This document shows positions 81-6,907 of a stretch of DNA of 51,222 nt, piece by piece. The notes below the pieces were generated by a model that was not told where the DNA came from, did no database searches, and worked only from the letters and a program-made list of their open reading frames with translations. A program made the translations under genes and the position numbers. Origin of the DNA: an uncultured Bacilli bacterium (lineage in GTDB: Bacteria; Bacillota_I; Bacilli_A; RF39; UBA660); assembly GCA_947623735.1 (NCBI GenBank), contig CANQHE010000005.1, forward strand, positions 1-51,222, written 5' to 3'. The stretch's first letter is position 1. Each line of letters starts with the position of its first letter.

Positions 81-2078
81 TTACGTTTCAACTATGTATG
101 GATTAGTTCTCGAACCCTCTGTTCCTCCTCCAGATGTTGTTAATTTTGTATCAGCTTTGAGGTTTATTACTGGGCGCAAACCAGTGCTAGCGTCGTACAC
201 GTAGTAGTCGAAGTTGAGGCTGCCATTATCAAACACAACGAACACGTAAGCATACTGGTTCGAAGAACTACTATAATAGCGAGACGGAGACATTGTCCAA
301 TAATGCCTATCAGTATATAGCCAATAACCATTGTTGGAAGCTCCTCCGAATCCTCCTGCAAATACTACTTCATCACTGGTTATTAAACCTACTGGGACAG
401 GCAATTTATTATTGCCTTCAATCAATGTTCCGCTACTTGATTTCGTGCCTTTTGCGCTTGGGCCTGTATACAAGTCTCTTTTTTGGGCTGCTGTATCTTT
501 TCCACATTTCAATGTTGGCGTTTGTGGCTTTTTCCAACTACTTCCATTATACAATCTTGTCCATGGAGCATATGCTGTTTGTTGAGTTCCATAACCTTGT
601 CCTGTATATCCTGATACAGATGCTGTATCTACCCCTCTATCTCCACAAAAGCCTGTTTCAACATCTATATATTGTTCAGCTAAATCTCCTAAATTTGTAC
701 TATTGTTATACCAATATTCAATTTCCTCTAATACTGTACTTTTTGTCTCAGGTTTATGTGCTGCATCATAGCCTGTACTTGCTTGTCCTTTTGTTCCGCC
801 ATACATATAACCTACATATTTATTATCATTATATTGTTCATTAAATCTTACAGCCATTCTATATTGGTCAGTTGTGTTTATTTCAGTTCTCGGTTTTATC
901 ATTGTTGTATTTCCTGTTGTTTCTGGGGCACTTTTAGGGCTAGTGCTTGTTCCAGCATAAATAAGTCTTATTGTTCCATTACCATTTATCCGAATAATTC
1001 GCCACCAAATATAATTACTACCAGTTTTATCCTTTCCAAAAACTACCCAGTTATTATCGACTGTTCCTCGATATACATAACTATCTCCAAAATCATCTTC
1101 TGTTTTATATATACCACTATCAGTCATTGTACAACTTCCACATGCTGGACCTGTTATCGAAGGAACATCACCTTTTGAATCTTGCTTTAAAGTATCTTCT
1201 AGCACTTCTTTACTTGTTAATACTTTATCATAATATAATTCACAACTAGTACCACTTTTGTTTAAGTTAGTTACAAGTAAACCATTTTGGGTACTATTCC
1301 ATTTAGGAATAGCATCATTAGTACAGCTACTTTCTTGTTCATTTAAAATATAATTTTCAGGAATAGTATTAGATGATTCATATTTGCCTGTTTCTTTATT
1401 TTCGATATATGTTGCGATAATATTAATATCAGGTTCAATGTCTGATGCTTGAACTTTGACGATACCATCAAAACCTTTTTCACCATCCATATCATCATTT
1501 TGACTTTGTGATAAGTTAGGATATTCTAGTACGACATAATAATACATTTTAGTACCATTTTCAGTGGAAGTAATAAATTCATCTTTAGCTAAAGTAAAAA
1601 TGCTACTTTGGGTACTATTAGTTATAGTACCAGTCGCAATAGGGTCTCCTAAATTTTCTAGGTTGGGAATAGAGCACTCTTCATATAACATTTGGCCACC
1701 TGAAACATTTTTCTTTATTTTTTCACAATTTGATTCATAAGTTGTTTCATTACTAGATTTATAAACTGTAAAATTTAGATTAGTTGTTAGGGTATTACTT
1801 CCCTCCCATATTAAGTCAAAGGGAATAAGTTCATTATTACCAGTCGCGGTTACTTCAACTCCGGAAATTTCTGTATGACCAGGAAGCATTCCATCATATG
1901 TAAACTCAAGTGTTCCTCTTACAGTTACTGTAGAATTTTTAACACTCGCGGTTGTAACTGTAGTGGTTGCTCCTTCTCCTCCAGTTAACATTCTTCCTAC
2001 AAAATACGCTAGAGCTAGACCTCCAAATAATAGAAAAACCCCTATTATAATTAATAATCTCTTATTTTTTTCTTTCAC
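81..2078 (-). CDS. Secreted or anchored surface protein with C-terminal lectin-like variable module
   Basis: This is a 665-residue exported protein with a GTG start and an AAGGAG ribosome site 7 bases upstream. Residues about 8-28 form one hydrophobic segment after a Lys-rich start. Residues about 40-290 are a beta-rich extracellular part without a family I can name. From about residue 330 to the end lies a module that begins with YRGTVDNNW, continues with WWRIIRINGNG and ends with YWTMSP and GLRPVINL. That ending resembles the C-type-lectin/formylglycine-enzyme fold that displays variable residues in DGR proteins. The same module occurs twice in the protein encoded at 3827-6907. Residues about 592-636 use GC-rich NNC codons unlike the rest of the gene. 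Ligand unknown; a binding or adhesion role is inferred. Confidence 0.85.
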   Translation of the reverse strand: MKEKNKRLLIIIGVFLLFGGLALAYFVGRMLTGGEGATTTVTTASVKNSTVTVRGTLEFTYDGMLPGHTEISGVEVTATGNNELIPFDLIWEGSNTLTTNLNFTVYKSSNETTYESNCEKIKKNVSGGQMLYEECSIPNLENLGDPIATGTITNSTQSSIFTLAKDEFITSTENGTKMYYYVVLEYPNLSQSQNDDMDGEKGFDGIVKVQASDIEPDINIIATYIENKETGKYESSNTIPENYILNEQESSCTNDAIPKWNSTQNGLLVTNLNKSGTSCELYYDKVLTSKEVLEDTLKQDSKGDVPSITGPACGSCTMTDSGIYKTEDDFGDSYVYRGTVDNNWVVFGKDKTGSNYIWWRIIRINGNGTIRLIYAGTSTSPKSAPETTGNTTMIKPRTEINTTDQYRMAVRFNEQYNDNKYVGYMYGGTKGQASTGYDAAHKPETKSTVLEEIEYWYNNSTNLGDLAEQYIDVETGFCGDRGVDTASVSGYTGQGYGTQQTAYAPWTRLYNGSSWKKPQTPTLKCGKDTAAQKRDLYTGPSAKGTKSSSGTLIEGNNKLPVPVGLITSDEVVFAGGFGGASNNGYWLYTDRHYWTMSPSRYYSSSSNQYAYVFVVFDNGSLNFDYYVYDASTGLRPVINLKADTKLTTSGGGTEGSRTNPYIVET
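163..290 (-). other. DGR-like variable region VR1
   Basis: This is the C-terminal tract between YWTMSP and GLRPVINL. Aligned to VR3 at 5013-5140 over 27 codons after the shared Asn-Gln pair, I count by eye about 25 differences at codon positions 1 and 2 but only 3 at position 3. Most variable codons read NNC, as expected if template AAC codons were mutated at adenines. The invariant block on the coding strand, CGCCCAGTAATAAA, sits at the 3' end, where an initiation-of-mutagenic-homing site would lie. No template is visible here. Confidence 0.7.
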
Positions 2079-2132
2079 GATAATTCTCCTTACTTAACTA
2101 TCTTAACGCTTTTTAAATACTTTTTCATTAGG

Positions 2133-2141
2133 TTCGACAAA
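2133..2141 (-). promoter_or_regulatory. Spo0A-box-like site upstream of the VR1 gene
   Basis: On the minus strand this reads TTTGTCGAA, matching the core of the Spo0A box (TGTCGAA). A TTGACA sequence lies just upstream of it. The same arrangement (TTGACA, TTTGTCGAA, TAATGAAA) is found ahead of the second lectin-module gene near 6965, which supports a shared control element about 55-65 bases before each start codon. Spo0A binding is inferred. Confidence 0.5.
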
Positions 2142-2254
2142 TGTTGTCAAAACTTCTATATATATAAATATTACAATATGTAATATCTTATGTTATATAA
2201 ATATATTACAATAATATTTAGAAAAATTCAAGTAATATATAACTTTTTAGTGTT

Positions 2255-2281
2255 ATATTTTTAATAGTGTTATCATATGGT
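2255..2281 (+). promoter_or_regulatory. Candidate sigma-E promoter of spoIVA
   Basis: ATA at 2255-2257 and CATATGG at 2274-2280 are separated by 16 bases. This fits the loose ATA / CATA pattern of mother-cell sigma-E promoters, 31 bases before the spoIVA start. In B. subtilis spoIVA is sigma-E dependent. The AT-rich context makes chance matches likely. Confidence 0.35.
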
Positions 2282-2311
2282 TAAATAGAAAGTTTGAAAG
2301 ATGGTGAATTA

Positions 2312-3790
2312 ATGGAGAAAAAAGAATTGCTAGAAAGTATATCCAAAAGAGGTAATGGAAGCATTTATCTTGGGGTTGTGGGGGCTGTTCGGACTGGTAA
2401 ATCAACTTTTATTAAAAGATTTATTGAAAATCTAGTAGTTCCTAATATTAATGATGAATATGAAAAGAAACATTGTTTAGATGAAATACCTCAAAGTGCA
2501 CAAGGAAAAGCAATTATGACAACAGAGCCAAAGTTTGTTCCTTCAAATGGAGCAGATATTATGGTGCAAGAATTTAAAACTAATATTAAATTAGTAGATT
2601 GTGTTGGTTTTGTAATACCAGGAGCAACTGGTTATGAAGATGAAGATGGTAATCCAAGAATGGTTAAAACCCCATGGTTTGAAGATTCAATTCCTTTTGT
2701 GGAAGCTGCCGAAATTGGAACCGAAAAAGTTATTAGAGATCATGCAACGATAGGAATTGTCGTTACAAGTGATGGTTCTTTTGGGGAAATACCACGAAAT
2801 AATTATATGGATGCCGAAGCCAAAGTTATTAATGAATTAAAAGAAATTGGTAAACCTTTTATCGTTATTTTAAATAGTGTACATCCCACTAATACTGAGA
2901 CTGTAAGAATGGCTCAAGATATGGAAGATATGTATCAAGTACCAGTAATCCCTATTAGTGCTGAAAAAATGAATGAAGTAGAAATAATGGAAATACTTAA
3001 AAAAGCTTTATATGAATTTCCAGTATTAGATATTAAAGTAAATATTCCCGAATGGATAGATGCTCTTCCCAAAAATCATGAAATTAAAGAACATTATTTA
3101 GATAAAATTAAAGAATCAGTTATTAGTGTCGAAAAAATTAAAGATATTGATTTTATTTTAGAACATTTTCAAGATAGTCCTTATATTAATAAATCTTATA
3201 TTAGTGAACTTGATGCCGCGACTGGGACAGTTACAATAAACTTAGAAGCAAAAGAAGAACTTTATAATGAAGTTTTAACAAGTATTATGGGAGATTCCGC
3301 GACTAGTAAAGCTGGTTTAATTAGAATATTTGCTAATTATAAAGAAATGAAAGAAGAAATGGATGGCATAAAACAAGCTTTAAATGTAGCAAGACAATCA
3401 GGTTATGGCATAGTATATCCCACTATTAAAGATATGAAATTAGAAACACCAGAGATAGTAAAACAGGGTTCAAGATATGGAGTTAAACTTAAAGCGACAG
3501 CTTCTTCTATTCATCTTATGAAAGTGGAAGTCCAATCGACTTTTGAACCAATTATAGGGTCAGAACAACAAAGTAAAGAATTAATTAATTATCTCATGAA
3601 AGATTATGAAAAAGATGCTAATTCAATTTGGCAAAGTGAAATATTTGGAAGAAGTTTAGAAGCAATAGTCCAAGAAGGAATACAAGCAAAACTTTCAATG
3701 ATGCCAGATGCTACTAGATATAAACTTAGTCAGACAGTTACAAAGATAGTTAATAAAGGGGCTAATAATTTAATTGCTATAGTTCTTTAA
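2312..3790 (+). CDS. spoIVA: Stage IV sporulation protein A, coat-base ATPase
   Basis: SpoIVA polymerises by ATP hydrolysis on the outer forespore membrane and forms the base on which the spore coat assembles. The ATG at 2312 gives 492 residues, the same length as the B. subtilis protein, and places the Walker A motif GAVRTGKST at residues 24-32 with the lysine at residue 30, as in SpoIVA. Other recognisable parts are LPQSA-like DEIPQSAQGK, TTEPKFVP, the LVDCVG switch-like segment and the C-terminal IFGRSLEAIVQEGIQAKLS and LIAIVL. A TTG 18 bases upstream extends the frame but is less likely. It is a single gene between two convergent or divergent surface-protein genes; SpoVID, its coat partner, is at the right end of the window. 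Confidence 0.97.
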   Translation: MEKKELLESISKRGNGSIYLGVVGAVRTGKSTFIKRFIENLVVPNINDEYEKKHCLDEIPQSAQGKAIMTTEPKFVPSNGADIMVQEFKTNIKLVDCVGFVIPGATGYEDEDGNPRMVKTPWFEDSIPFVEAAEIGTEKVIRDHATIGIVVTSDGSFGEIPRNNYMDAEAKVINELKEIGKPFIVILNSVHPTNTETVRMAQDMEDMYQVPVIPISAEKMNEVEIMEILKKALYEFPVLDIKVNIPEWIDALPKNHEIKEHYLDKIKESVISVEKIKDIDFILEHFQDSPYINKSYISELDAATGTVTINLEAKEELYNEVLTSIMGDSATSKAGLIRIFANYKEMKEEMDGIKQALNVARQSGYGIVYPTIKDMKLETPEIVKQGSRYGVKLKATASSIHLMKVEVQSTFEPIIGSEQQSKELINYLMKDYEKDANSIWQSEIFGRSLEAIVQEGIQAKLSMMPDATRYKLSQTVTKIVNKGANNLIAIVL

Positions 3791-3794
3791 TATA

Positions 3795-3826
3795 AAAATA
3801 ACACTCAAAATGAGTGCTATTTTATT
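3795..3826. terminator. Bidirectional terminator after spoIVA
   Basis: AAAATAACACTC and GAGTGCTATTTT pair around an AAAAT loop, with A and T runs on the two sides. The hairpin sits between the ends of the converging spoIVA and lectin-module genes and can serve both strands. Confidence 0.75.
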
Positions 3827-6800
3827 TTAAGATACTATATATGGATCTGTTGTTGTTCCTGAACCTGTTAATTTAATATTAGACTTGAGGTTTATTACAG
3901 GACGTATACCACGGCTATCGTGATGCACACCGTTGAAGTTAAGTTTGCCATTTTCATACACAATGAATATACTTGACCCACCGCTATAAGTACTTGGAGA
4001 CATGGTCCAATAAGCCATATTAATGTTTAGCCAATATCCACTATTCTCTTTATCCCCAAATCCACCGGCATATACTACTTCATCAGCCGTTATTAACCCT
4101 ACAGGCACTGGCAAAGCATTATTTCCTTCTACTACATTAGTAGTTGCTTTTATTGGCTTGGCTCCTATATATGTATATAAATCTCTTTTTTGAGCTTCTG
4201 TATCGACCACTTTTACCTCTGGATCTACTCCACACTTTAATGTCGGATATTGTGTGCTTCTCCAGCCGTTTAATAACATACGCCCATACACAGCATATGC
4301 TGTTGTTTTAGTTCCATATCCAGATTTTGTATCATCGCTCCACCATGTTTCATCTGTGTTATTAACTTGGGTGTCACTACAAAAGCCTATATCTGTATCT
4401 ATATATGTATTTTGTAAAGTTCCAAGATTTGTTTGTTTATACCATAAATCTATTTGAGTAAGTATTGTACTTTGTGTACTACTGCTTGTTACTTTATGGG
4501 CATCATTAAAATTTGCTGATGCTGTAGGAGTACTATTATACATATATCCTACATACTTATTATCATCATATGTTTCATTAAACATTACAGCTCGGGGATA
4601 TGAATCATTCCCGGCATTTTTTGTTGGACTTATTAAATTTTTTTCACTTTTAGCATCTGGCGTTGTTCCACTGTCATATGTTCCAGCATAAATTAACCTA
4701 ATGCTTCCATTTCCGTTTATTCGAATGATTCGCCACCAGATATCCCCTTGTTCTGCCCCACTTGTAGCTTGTCCAAATTTAACCCAGTTATTATCGACAG
4801 TGCCGCGATATACATAACTTGTTCCATAGTCATCTTCGGCTGTATATATTCCATTTTCTTTTACTGTACAGTTACTACAACTTGGGCCTGTAAATGTTGG
4901 AGTACCATTTACTTTATTATCTGCTAGAATTTGGTCTTTAGAATTGTCATATTCTATTTTATATGGATCTGTTGCTGTTCCAGAACCACTAAGTTTTGTA
5001 TTAGCATTTAGATTTATTACTGGGCGAGCACCAGTGACAGTGCCGCTCACGCTGTCGTCGCCGAGGCGGCCATCGGTAAGCACACGGAACACGCTAGCGG
5101 CCTGGTTCGAAGAACTATAATAATAATAGTTAAACGGAGACATGGTCCAATACCATTGATTTGTATATAACCAATAACCATTATTCGTTTGACCAGCAAA
5201 TCCTCCGGCATATATTACTTCATCCATTGTTATTAAACCAACTGGAATTGGTAAGGCACCATTTCCTGCTATTGTTGTTCCGTTACTGCCTTGTGTTCCA
5301 TTTGCCCCTGGGCCTGTATATAAATCTCTTTTTCTTGATGCATCATCTTTACCACATTTTAATGTTGGAGTTTGTTCAGTTGAATTCCAAATTGTACCAC
5401 TTGCTTGCCATACCCTATCGGCTCCAGCATAGGCTGTTGCTGTACTTCCATAACCTAAATTCCCTGTCCCTGGATAACTACTTCCATGGTTGGCAGTTGA
5501 GATTGTTGTATCACTACAAAAGCCTGTATCTACATCTATTTTACTCACTAATTCTCCTAAATTTGTTTTATTATTATACCAGTCTACTATTTCATCTAAA
5601 ACTGTACTTTTTGTACTTGTACTTGTTACTTTATGTGCTTGATCATGAGTTGTTGATACCGTCGGTTCATTATTATACATATATCCTACATATTTATTAT
5701 CATTATAAGTTTTATTAAAATAAACTGACTTTGGATAACTTGTACCACCTGCTGGGGATCTTGGCGTTATCATTGTATCATTACCTGTTGTTGGTGGTGC
5801 TTCTATTGTACTATTATTTGTTCCGGCATATATTAATCTTATTGTCCCGTTGCCATTTATGCGGATTATCCTCCACCAAATATATTGGTTGTTTGTGGTA
5901 TCTTTGCCAAAGACTAACCAGTTATCATCTACGTTACCTCTAAAATACATAGAATCACCAAAATCATCTTCGGCTGTATATAATGTTGATTTTCCTTGAT
6001 CATTTTTATGAGTTTGGTCATCTATTCCTGTGAAACTATCTTCTCCTTTTTCTACTGTTCTATCGGCGAGTATTGTTTCACAAGCTGGACTTCCACTTGG
6101 GCAATATTTACCATTTACGGGATTACTACAGATTACTTTACCTTCATTAATACTTGTACATACTATTTGATCGGTTTCTTTTTCTTCTAAATTGATTGTT
6201 ATTTTATTATCTGATGGTGATATTGGAGTTGTTGGTGTACATACATTTCCAGTAGTAGTACAATATTTGATATTTGAACTTCCTTCTGGTACTGTTCCAA
6301 TTAAGGTTAGTAAACTTTTTGTAAATTTAATGTCTACATTTGATATTGGTGTTACTCTGGAATCTCCCGCTACATTTATTTTTGATGAAAAAGTTTTATT
6401 TGCTCCCTCTTCTACTGTTGTATCATAATCGATCCATTCTTTTAAAGTAAATTCTTTTGTTTCTTCAGATCCAATTGTTCCATTAAATAAATTATATGAT
6501 GATACTGCTCCTTCATTAGTTACTTCACTACTATTATCACTTAACTTGGTTATTAAATTATCCATCGTATCACTTGATAAAGATACTTTAACATAGTTTG
6601 CTTCTAAAGTACTCTCTAATTTATCTAAATATATAGCATAAGTTGATTCTTTACTACAATTATTTTTAATAGTAAAACTATAACCATTATCTTCTTTTAG
6701 ACCTTCAACATCCGTTACAGGGACAGCATCTTTTAAATCTATCGCAGATGTTTCACTATCTATAGTGATACTTAAACATCCTGATGAAAATGTATTAGCT

Positions 6801-6907
6801 AGTTTTTGTTTATCGCCGGTTGTAAAAAAAGCAAAAGCTACTGTAAAGATTGCCACTAATGCTAGTGTTATTCCTCCGATTAAAAATACTTTCTTATTCT
6901 TTTCCAT
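3827..6907 (-). CDS. Large surface protein with two tandem lectin-like variable modules
   Basis: The product has 1026 residues and starts at ATG after AAAGGAAATG. Residues about 8-27 are hydrophobic and are followed by a beta-rich TasA/camelysin-like part (about 28-190), the N-terminal style of SipW-processed matrix proteins. A Cys-containing linker follows (about 200-290). Module 1 spans roughly residues 310-640 and contains a variable tract at about 586-629. Module 2 spans about 690-1026 with a second tract at about 966-1006. Each module has the YRG/FRGNVD, WWRIIRINGNG and RPVINL landmarks of the 665-residue protein. Module 1's tract is nearly alignable base for base with that protein's. 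Presumed extracellular binding protein; ligand unknown. An internal variable tract is unusual, since most DGR targets vary at the C-terminus. Confidence 0.85.
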   Translation of the reverse strand: MEKNKKVFLIGGITLALVAIFTVAFAFFTTGDKQKLANTFSSGCLSITIDSETSAIDLKDAVPVTDVEGLKEDNGYSFTIKNNCSKESTYAIYLDKLESTLEANYVKVSLSSDTMDNLITKLSDNSSEVTNEGAVSSYNLFNGTIGSEETKEFTLKEWIDYDTTVEEGANKTFSSKINVAGDSRVTPISNVDIKFTKSLLTLIGTVPEGSSNIKYCTTTGNVCTPTTPISPSDNKITINLEEKETDQIVCTSINEGKVICSNPVNGKYCPSGSPACETILADRTVEKGEDSFTGIDDQTHKNDQGKSTLYTAEDDFGDSMYFRGNVDDNWLVFGKDTTNNQYIWWRIIRINGNGTIRLIYAGTNNSTIEAPPTTGNDTMITPRSPAGGTSYPKSVYFNKTYNDNKYVGYMYNNEPTVSTTHDQAHKVTSTSTKSTVLDEIVDWYNNKTNLGELVSKIDVDTGFCSDTTISTANHGSSYPGTGNLGYGSTATAYAGADRVWQASGTIWNSTEQTPTLKCGKDDASRKRDLYTGPGANGTQGSNGTTIAGNGALPIPVGLITMDEVIYAGGFAGQTNNGYWLYTNQWYWTMSPFNYYYYSSSNQAASVFRVLTDGRLGDDSVSGTVTGARPVINLNANTKLSGSGTATDPYKIEYDNSKDQILADNKVNGTPTFTGPSCSNCTVKENGIYTAEDDYGTSYVYRGTVDNNWVKFGQATSGAEQGDIWWRIIRINGNGSIRLIYAGTYDSGTTPDAKSEKNLISPTKNAGNDSYPRAVMFNETYDDNKYVGYMYNSTPTASANFNDAHKVTSSSTQSTILTQIDLWYKQTNLGTLQNTYIDTDIGFCSDTQVNNTDETWWSDDTKSGYGTKTTAYAVYGRMLLNGWRSTQYPTLKCGVDPEVKVVDTEAQKRDLYTYIGAKPIKATTNVVEGNNALPVPVGLITADEVVYAGGFGDKENSGYWLNINMAYWTMSPSTYSGGSSIFIVYENGKLNFNGVHHDSRGIRPVINLKSNIKLTGSGTTTDPYIVS
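3891..4000 (-). other. Variable-region-like tract VR2 in module 2
   Basis: This tract ends module 2, between YWTMSPS and GIRPVINL. It keeps the frame words TTC, GTG, AATGGC and AACTTC of VR1 but differs more broadly, including third positions, and its 3' block reads CGTCCTGTAATAAACCTC. It may derive from another template or be an old, no longer retargeted copy. Confidence 0.45.
5013..5140 (-). other. DGR-like variable region VR3, internal
   Basis: The coding strand runs from ATGTCTCCG to CGCCCAGTAATAAA. It is strikingly GC-rich (GCC, AGC, GGC, GAC, GTC codons) compared with the AT-rich gene around it. Against VR1, the invariant words TCTTCGAACCAG, GTGTTC, GGC.GCCTC-like and ACTGGT are kept, while intervening codons change at positions 1 and 2. 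It lies in the middle of the protein, not at its end. Confidence 0.7.

Follow-up and report, generated by a model that had tools for sequence, protein, structure and literature searches.

Variable tracts in two surface-protein genes of an uncultured Bacilli bacterium as probable targets of a trans-acting, many-template diversity-generating retroelement

The window analysed here, a stretch of 51,222 nucleotides, is contig C5 of the 1.34-Mb draft genome (77 contigs, 91% complete) of an uncultured Bacilli bacterium, and it contains two genes for surface-type proteins with short, strongly diverged tracts, VR1 and VR3. What process made these tracts differ from each other? The first-pass annotation of the window had proposed a probable target pair of a diversity-generating retroelement (DGR). 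DGRs are usually described as one reverse transcriptase (RT), one template repeat (TR) and one or few targets. The tracts are best explained, with a probability of about 0.86, as variable repeats (VRs) of a DGR that would work in trans from many templates. The earlier interpretation was supported in kind, and its scale was far too small: both tracts appear to be DGR targets, not as a pair but as two of at least 42.

Variable tracts in the window and across the genome

The features of the two host genes were as follows.

81–2078, minus strand: target gene 1, encoding a surface-type protein of 665 aa, with a hydrophobic segment at its N-terminus and a variable module at its C-terminus
84–1115, minus strand: C-terminal module with VR1 (YWTMSP...RPVINL)
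171–293, minus strand: VR1, in the open reading frame 81–2078
171–182, minus strand: 3' end of VR1, GGTTTGCGCCCA, a G/C-rich end resembling an initiation of mutagenic homing (IMH) sequence and common to the templates (GGTGTGCGCCCA)
3827–6907, minus strand: target gene 2, encoding a protein of 1026 aa in which two variable modules lie in tandem, one internal (VR3) and one C-terminal (VR2)
3830–4852, minus strand: C-terminal module with VR2
3899–4003, minus strand: VR2, at the C-terminus of target gene 2, a third, diverged copy with an altered IMH, GGTATACGTCCT, which the first-pass annotation had left unpaired with VR1 and VR3
4958–5983, minus strand: internal module with VR3
5021–5143, minus strand: VR3, in the open reading frame 3827–6907; best template TR C12c (C12:17858-17941)

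Aligned with one codon gap, VR1 and VR3 differed 14 times at the first codon position, 10 times at the second and 3 times at the third, close to the hand count of 14, 11 and 3 over 27 codons in the first-pass annotation. Between the shared Asn-Gln and the CGCCCA anchor, VR1 contained 26 codons and VR3 25; VR1 had one codon less in the Tyr run and one more in the Asn-derived run. The GC contents of 0.45 for VR1 and 0.53 for VR3 exceeded those of the whole window (0.28) and of the two host genes (0.35), in agreement with the earlier description of GC-rich tracts in AT-rich DNA. The invariant shared end reported earlier, CGCCCAGTAATAAA, was present in both tracts. This signature is far beyond chance, because around 40 further genes of the genome carry it. 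In total, 42 tracts that fit the pattern W-T-M-S/T-P...R-P-V-I in frame were located on about 30 contigs, a lower bound for the VR-bearing targets, and a profile of these tracts gave 72 matches, including TRs and paralogous domains.

The module of target gene 1 was 57–62% identical to both modules of target gene 2. A search of the target gene 1 protein against Pfam and NCBIfam matched no family, and residues 963–1009 of the target gene 2 protein matched DUF6273 (E 7e-6). No PDB relative of the target was found by sequence, and the AlphaFold prediction of the VR1 module had a pLDDT of 37, too low for use. These results gave no confirmation of the lectin-type or other tolerant fold that is expected of a DGR target. 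The sporulation gene SpoIVA (window 2294–3790) lies between both target genes, so that the locus looks like an ordinary chromosomal one and not an obvious prophage.

Template RNA genes and adenine specificity

An A-rich ancestral template was predicted from the VRs, and the genome was searched for it by blastn and with a covariance model. Several matches aligned to the interior of the query alone and turned out to be non-coding cassettes on one plan. In each cassette TATAAT is followed by GGGTTAATCT and the TR, which ends in GGTGTGCGCCCA. After the TR come an ATATCC...GGATAC stem with an inner hairpin, AGATTAATCC, a hairpin, and a terminator hairpin with a T-run. AGATTAATCC is complementary to the start of the RNA and would form a closing stem with it. 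Downstream of GGTGTGCGCCCA the VRs continued with GTAATAAA and the templates with ATATCC, and the sequences therefore diverged right after the IMH of the VRs and its template counterpart (IMH*), a G/C-rich 3' end as found in DGRs. The A-rich near-copies that the first-pass annotation had anticipated do exist; however, they are separate RNA genes elsewhere and do not adjoin the RT. At least 12 stand-alone TR RNA genes with a complete 3' body, single or in tandem arrays, and one partial match were found.

C12: five TR RNA genes, four of them about 300 bp apart
C10: two TR RNA genes
C1: two TR RNA genes (C1:64590-65057, L036), with 5'-truncated templates and an intact downstream structure
C35, C18 and C44: one TR RNA gene each; the C44 template ends in TTGCGGCCA instead of GGTGTGCGCCCA
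C38:9729-9796: partial match, 3' end only

The predicted structure was examined by covariation in 39 RNAs from the genus. Of all cells, 96.3% were paired, and 30 of 42 pairs had changes on both sides, a result reached by 0 of 500 shuffles, while slid controls were 33–49% paired; the covariance model was built on 12 of those RNAs and the alignment was fitted to the model, and the counts lean towards structure. The closing stem, which lay outside the covariance model, also contained compensatory changes. A TATAAT element with at most one mismatch stood upstream in 35 of the 39 RNAs, usually 5–10 nt ahead, compared with 6 of 39 in a control window. No Rfam family was found for the TR RNA.

The changes in the VRs were concentrated at template adenines, as the first-pass annotation had predicted for mismatches of VR1 and VR3. 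VR3 differed from TR C12c at 17 of 37 A and 4–6 of 86 non-A positions (Fisher p 1.4e-7). For VR1, 18 of 33 A and 1 of 45 non-A positions were changed with respect to the ancestral template plus one extra codon, a template that is itself an inference and not an extant sequence. The VR on C44 differed from its own TR at 20 of 37 template adenines and at 1 of 68 other bases. When 22 close VRs were compared with the best extant TR, 247 of 537 A and 92 of 1113 non-A positions were changed (Fisher p 6e-67), a pooled result that is somewhat inflated by the choice of the best template, and the changes were asymmetric, with 247 A-to-N against 47 N-to-A. Third bases were kept in 331 of 375 cases.

The VRs also carried traces of particular templates. 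By inspection, VR length classes agreed with template classes in the 5' parts. For 12 of 34 VRs, VR3 included, the fit to a particular extant and already diversified template was better than to the ancestral template (p<0.01 by simulation), and the log-likelihood of VR3 on C12c was 15.1 above that on the ancestral template, a value as high as which was seen in 0 of 2000 simulations. The VR C4_53305 could be composed as C12b followed by C12c with 0 residual non-A mismatches, and C45_3114 and C22_14627 were other mosaic-looking VRs; the reading of VRs as two-template mosaics is suggestive only, because missing templates could mimic mosaics. VR2 is probably a retired VR, because 20 of 72 non-A mismatches remained against its best template and its IMH is altered.

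Reverse transcriptase operon, proposed mechanism and rival explanations

The genome contains three RVT_1 genes. The one on C12 was set aside as a group II maturase with a GIIM domain. The other two encode RTs of 370 aa, both with the IGNMTSQ and YMDD motifs.

C28:10450-11559: main RT (370 aa; IGNMTSQ and YMDD), preceded by bAvd and MutS_I-like genes

The (I/V/L)GxxxSQ motif is a mark of DGR RTs (PMC3521204). The RT matched the PHROG RT family with an E value of 2e-82, and by motif and profile match it was classified as the DGR-type enzyme that the first-pass annotation had called for, accompanied by Avd. The bAvd family (PF22296, E 1.5e-9) was matched just under the cut-off by the C28 gene and above it by the C44 gene; the NCBIfam Avd match (E 2.8e-9) was also under the cut-off, and the PHROG family "Avd protein of DGR" was matched with an E value of 1.5e-14. 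A second set was split over C44 (TR, target, MutS_I-like and Avd) and C57 (RT). Of the two, only this second locus has a TR close by, with avd about 4 kb downstream of it. At the start of C44 (C44:1-167) lies the 5' portion of a group II intron (RF02005), and an apparent intron 3' end lies at the right end of C57, before the RT; an intron between avd and RT therefore probably splits the second locus in the assembly. On C28 no TR RNA was found by the covariance model, and blastn gave just the known VR tract; the covariance model likewise found none among the related RT loci covered, 21 in all and partly truncated. A TR near the RT is a usual though not strictly defining DGR trait; since the main operon has none adjoining it, its templates would have to act in trans.

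Further genes were observed near these loci. In two relatives a MYG1-family exonuclease gene (PF03690; L080:3262-4155 and L081:6170-7048, E 5e-43 and 1e-50) stands between the target gene and the MutS_I-like, Avd and RT genes, and a gene near 8630-9506 on C28 resembles it by position and sequence; this gene is a possible unrecognised accessory. A PD-(D/E)XK nuclease-family gene (PF12784, E 6e-12; L048:3513-4424) adjoins the C44 TR, and a similar-looking nuclease-type gene lies between two C12 TR cassettes (16.5–17.5 kb), which may be a coincidence.

The proposed mechanism is as follows. One RT-Avd-MutS_I-like operon, without a template alongside, would work with at least a dozen stand-alone TR RNAs, each with its own promoter and terminator and closed by a stem of its 5' and 3' ends. 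The adenine-containing TR, ending in IMH* upstream of the conserved hairpins, would be copied by the RT with errors at A, and the cDNA would take the place of its matching VR in one of about 40 genes for surface proteins. The TR loci may be rewritten too, which would give a slowly diversifying template library. The RT/Avd operon, the TR RNA genes with their covarying structure, the VRs, the adenine specificity and the confinement of template variation to adenines are seen in the sequence; transcription of the TR genes, binding of the RNA by protein, homing of cDNA in trans and rewriting of the templates are inferred.

Several observations weigh against a trans-acting, many-template DGR. The second RT on C57 may serve part of the set. 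VR2 and about ten other VRs had at least 12 non-A mismatches, and no single extant template fitted them; some templates are probably missing from the set, because the genome is a fragmented draft. In the relative G018 just 4 of 36 VRs were close without gaps (44 of 90 A and 14 of 210 non-A positions changed), and in G030, with A-poor templates, each of the 20 analysed VRs had 12 or more non-A mismatches to every template.

An ordinary DGR with one functional TR, for instance that of C44, the other TR RNAs being dead duplicates and the VRs relics, would account for C44 holding the only complete cis set, with a VR that matches its TR almost perfectly, and for the truncation of the two C1 templates. 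In-frame stops in the RTs of some relatives were also counted for it; in G001, G007, G009, G011 and G013 the RT has in-frame stops or is in fragments and the TR RNAs are kept. This explanation is improbable. A promoter, covarying stems and a terminator are retained in the 11 other TR RNAs, and the non-A columns of their TR bodies are conserved (1 of 40 variable). Twelve VRs, VR3 among them, fit particular extant templates other than that of C44, and the C44 template does not end in GGTGTGCGCCCA. RT-independent gene conversion among silent cassettes, as in archive-type antigenic variation, would make the TR-like tracts a DNA archive and is slightly less probable again. The already-varied codons in the templates, the VRs that resemble two-template mosaics and the few adenines of the G030 templates speak for it; the mosaics may also reflect missing templates. 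Gene conversion alone does not confine changes to template A with third bases kept (331 of 375), and an RNA step is indicated by the retained RT/Avd operon and by an RNA with structure and promoter. At A positions the VRs also depart from every known template, which missing templates could explain. Positive selection on paralogous surface proteins with no retroelement could by itself give the excess at first and second positions, but it has almost no chance of being right, being refuted by the non-coding A-rich near-copies, the RT/Avd operon and the excess of A-to-N over N-to-A changes (247 vs 47).

Variation among the templates themselves followed the same base. In nine TRs of this genome, 31 of 35 columns containing A were variable, whereas 1 of 40 columns without A was. 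The same split by C, G and T gave 19 of 49, 13 of 43 and 17 of 47 variable columns without the base, and random base identity reproduced the adenine split in about 1e-5 of trials. The split was absent from the RNA tail, where 8 of 40 columns without A varied. Ungapped column tests across mixed length classes are not clean and the test in a single length class is; in one length class of the G018 TRs, 24 of 29 columns with A and 2 of 38 without A were variable. In the G030 TRs the split was weak, and 10 of 39 and 11 of 37 columns without A varied. The third base of TR AAY codons was kept in 128 of 135. Because the variation of the templates is nearly confined to adenine columns and that of the rest of the RNA is not, it is best explained by TR loci that would be rewritten by mutagenic homing, or copied back from VRs.

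The main rival to template rewriting, and to that step only, is passive variation limited by selection, in which scaffold bases are selected for homing and target fold and A sites drift. Constraint of this kind is expected, since the template bases other than A end up in proteins and homology depends on them. Passive variation is nevertheless less likely than not: third bases that are silent, in GTG, GGC, CTC and TTC codons, are fixed like the rest, two bases change together in codons (AAT to CGT), and G leads the replacements at A sites in both TRs (A 71, G 13, T 8, C 8%) and VRs (A 46, G 26, T 15, C 13%). In a fuller proposal the templates would be a self-rewriting library, with TR genes that spread by multiplication into arrays, adenine mutagenesis that also strikes the TR loci, and multi-template mosaics that overwrite the targets. 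This proposal is tentative and falls a little short of even odds. If true, it would mean two-tier diversification, with slow templates and fast targets, and a drift of some species to adenine-poor, memory-like templates.

Relatives and comparison with known systems

Of 36 genomes from the genus, 32 carried the TR RNA, in 2 to 25 copies, and the C28-type RT usually occurred once per genome; neither was found in G002, G016 and G023. Genomes with more TRs also tended to have more target domains after subtraction of the TRs (Spearman 0.61, p 8e-5), a correlation among species that are not independent. Beyond the genus, genomes of the same family held either a single A-rich template (G289, G318, G367, G355, G356 and G313) or multiple TR RNA copies (G137, G285 and G234). 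The 70 nt before IMH* contained 7–14 AAY triplets in single-template genomes, 4–14 here and 0–6 in G030, for which the offset is approximate. G030 (L117-L121) has 22 TR RNAs with few adenines, two neighbouring cassettes being identical over the compared stretch, and its templates may be turning into fixed donors. In the relatives with damaged RTs the enzyme was possibly lost recently, with the templates left behind. The named relatives of the RT were from uncultured gut-type Bacilli/Tenericutes metagenome-assembled genomes and Candidatus Caccenecus avistercoris.

The diversification would probably act at the cell surface, towards host, neighbours and phages. If the many-template DGR is real, these small-genome gut bacteria would be, by target number, among the heaviest reported users of programmed protein diversification in the literature compared. 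Template choice would be uncoupled from the RT, and questions would become testable on the RNA features that recruit RT-Avd (with dozens of natural variants), on template-target matching and on template rewriting. The compact stand-alone TR RNA genes would also be handy parts for directed evolution.

Retron msr-msd RNAs offer a further comparison. In retrons, a compact RNA gene closed by complementary ends is copied by a separately encoded RT, and the compact, end-closed TR RNA with its separate RT is alike. In contrast, the present RNA includes a TR with IMH* and has homologous protein-coding targets.

The canonical DGR (Bordetella phage BPP-1; DiGReF survey, PMC3521204) shares with the present system an error-prone (I/V/L)GxxxSQ RT, Avd, A-specific changes between TR and VR, IMH and IMH*, a structured RNA 3' of the TR and a variable surface or binding protein. 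However, in the canonical DGR the single TR lies no more than a few kb from the RT, whereas at least 12 stand-alone TR genes, some in arrays, were found here, with none beside the main RT operon, and the templates themselves vary at A. The Treponema denticola DGR also combines one RT with many remote chromosomal targets and has TR variants between strains; strain ATCC 35405 has 1 TR and 7 targets (PMC4891356), compared with at least 12 TRs and 42 targets in one genome here. In Thiohalocapsa PB-PSB1, trans diversification of remote targets was likewise inferred and degenerate loci occur, with 9 loci in four classes, 15 targets and one complete locus per class; arrays of stand-alone TR RNA genes are not described in the consulted part of that account (PMC10907252). 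The MetaCSST survey recorded multiple-TR DGRs, such as that of Stenotrophomonas SKA14 with 2 TRs and 6 VRs, and most multi-VR DGRs in it have one TR; its high-copy case of 6 TRs and 91 pairs had few A-to-N changes and was termed atypical (PMC6642488). The open-access literature searched, a part of the whole, gave no report of many-template DGRs or of arrays of stand-alone TR RNA genes. The system therefore appears to be a DGR of a known kind, and what seems new is its layout, with many stand-alone templates uncoupled from the RT.

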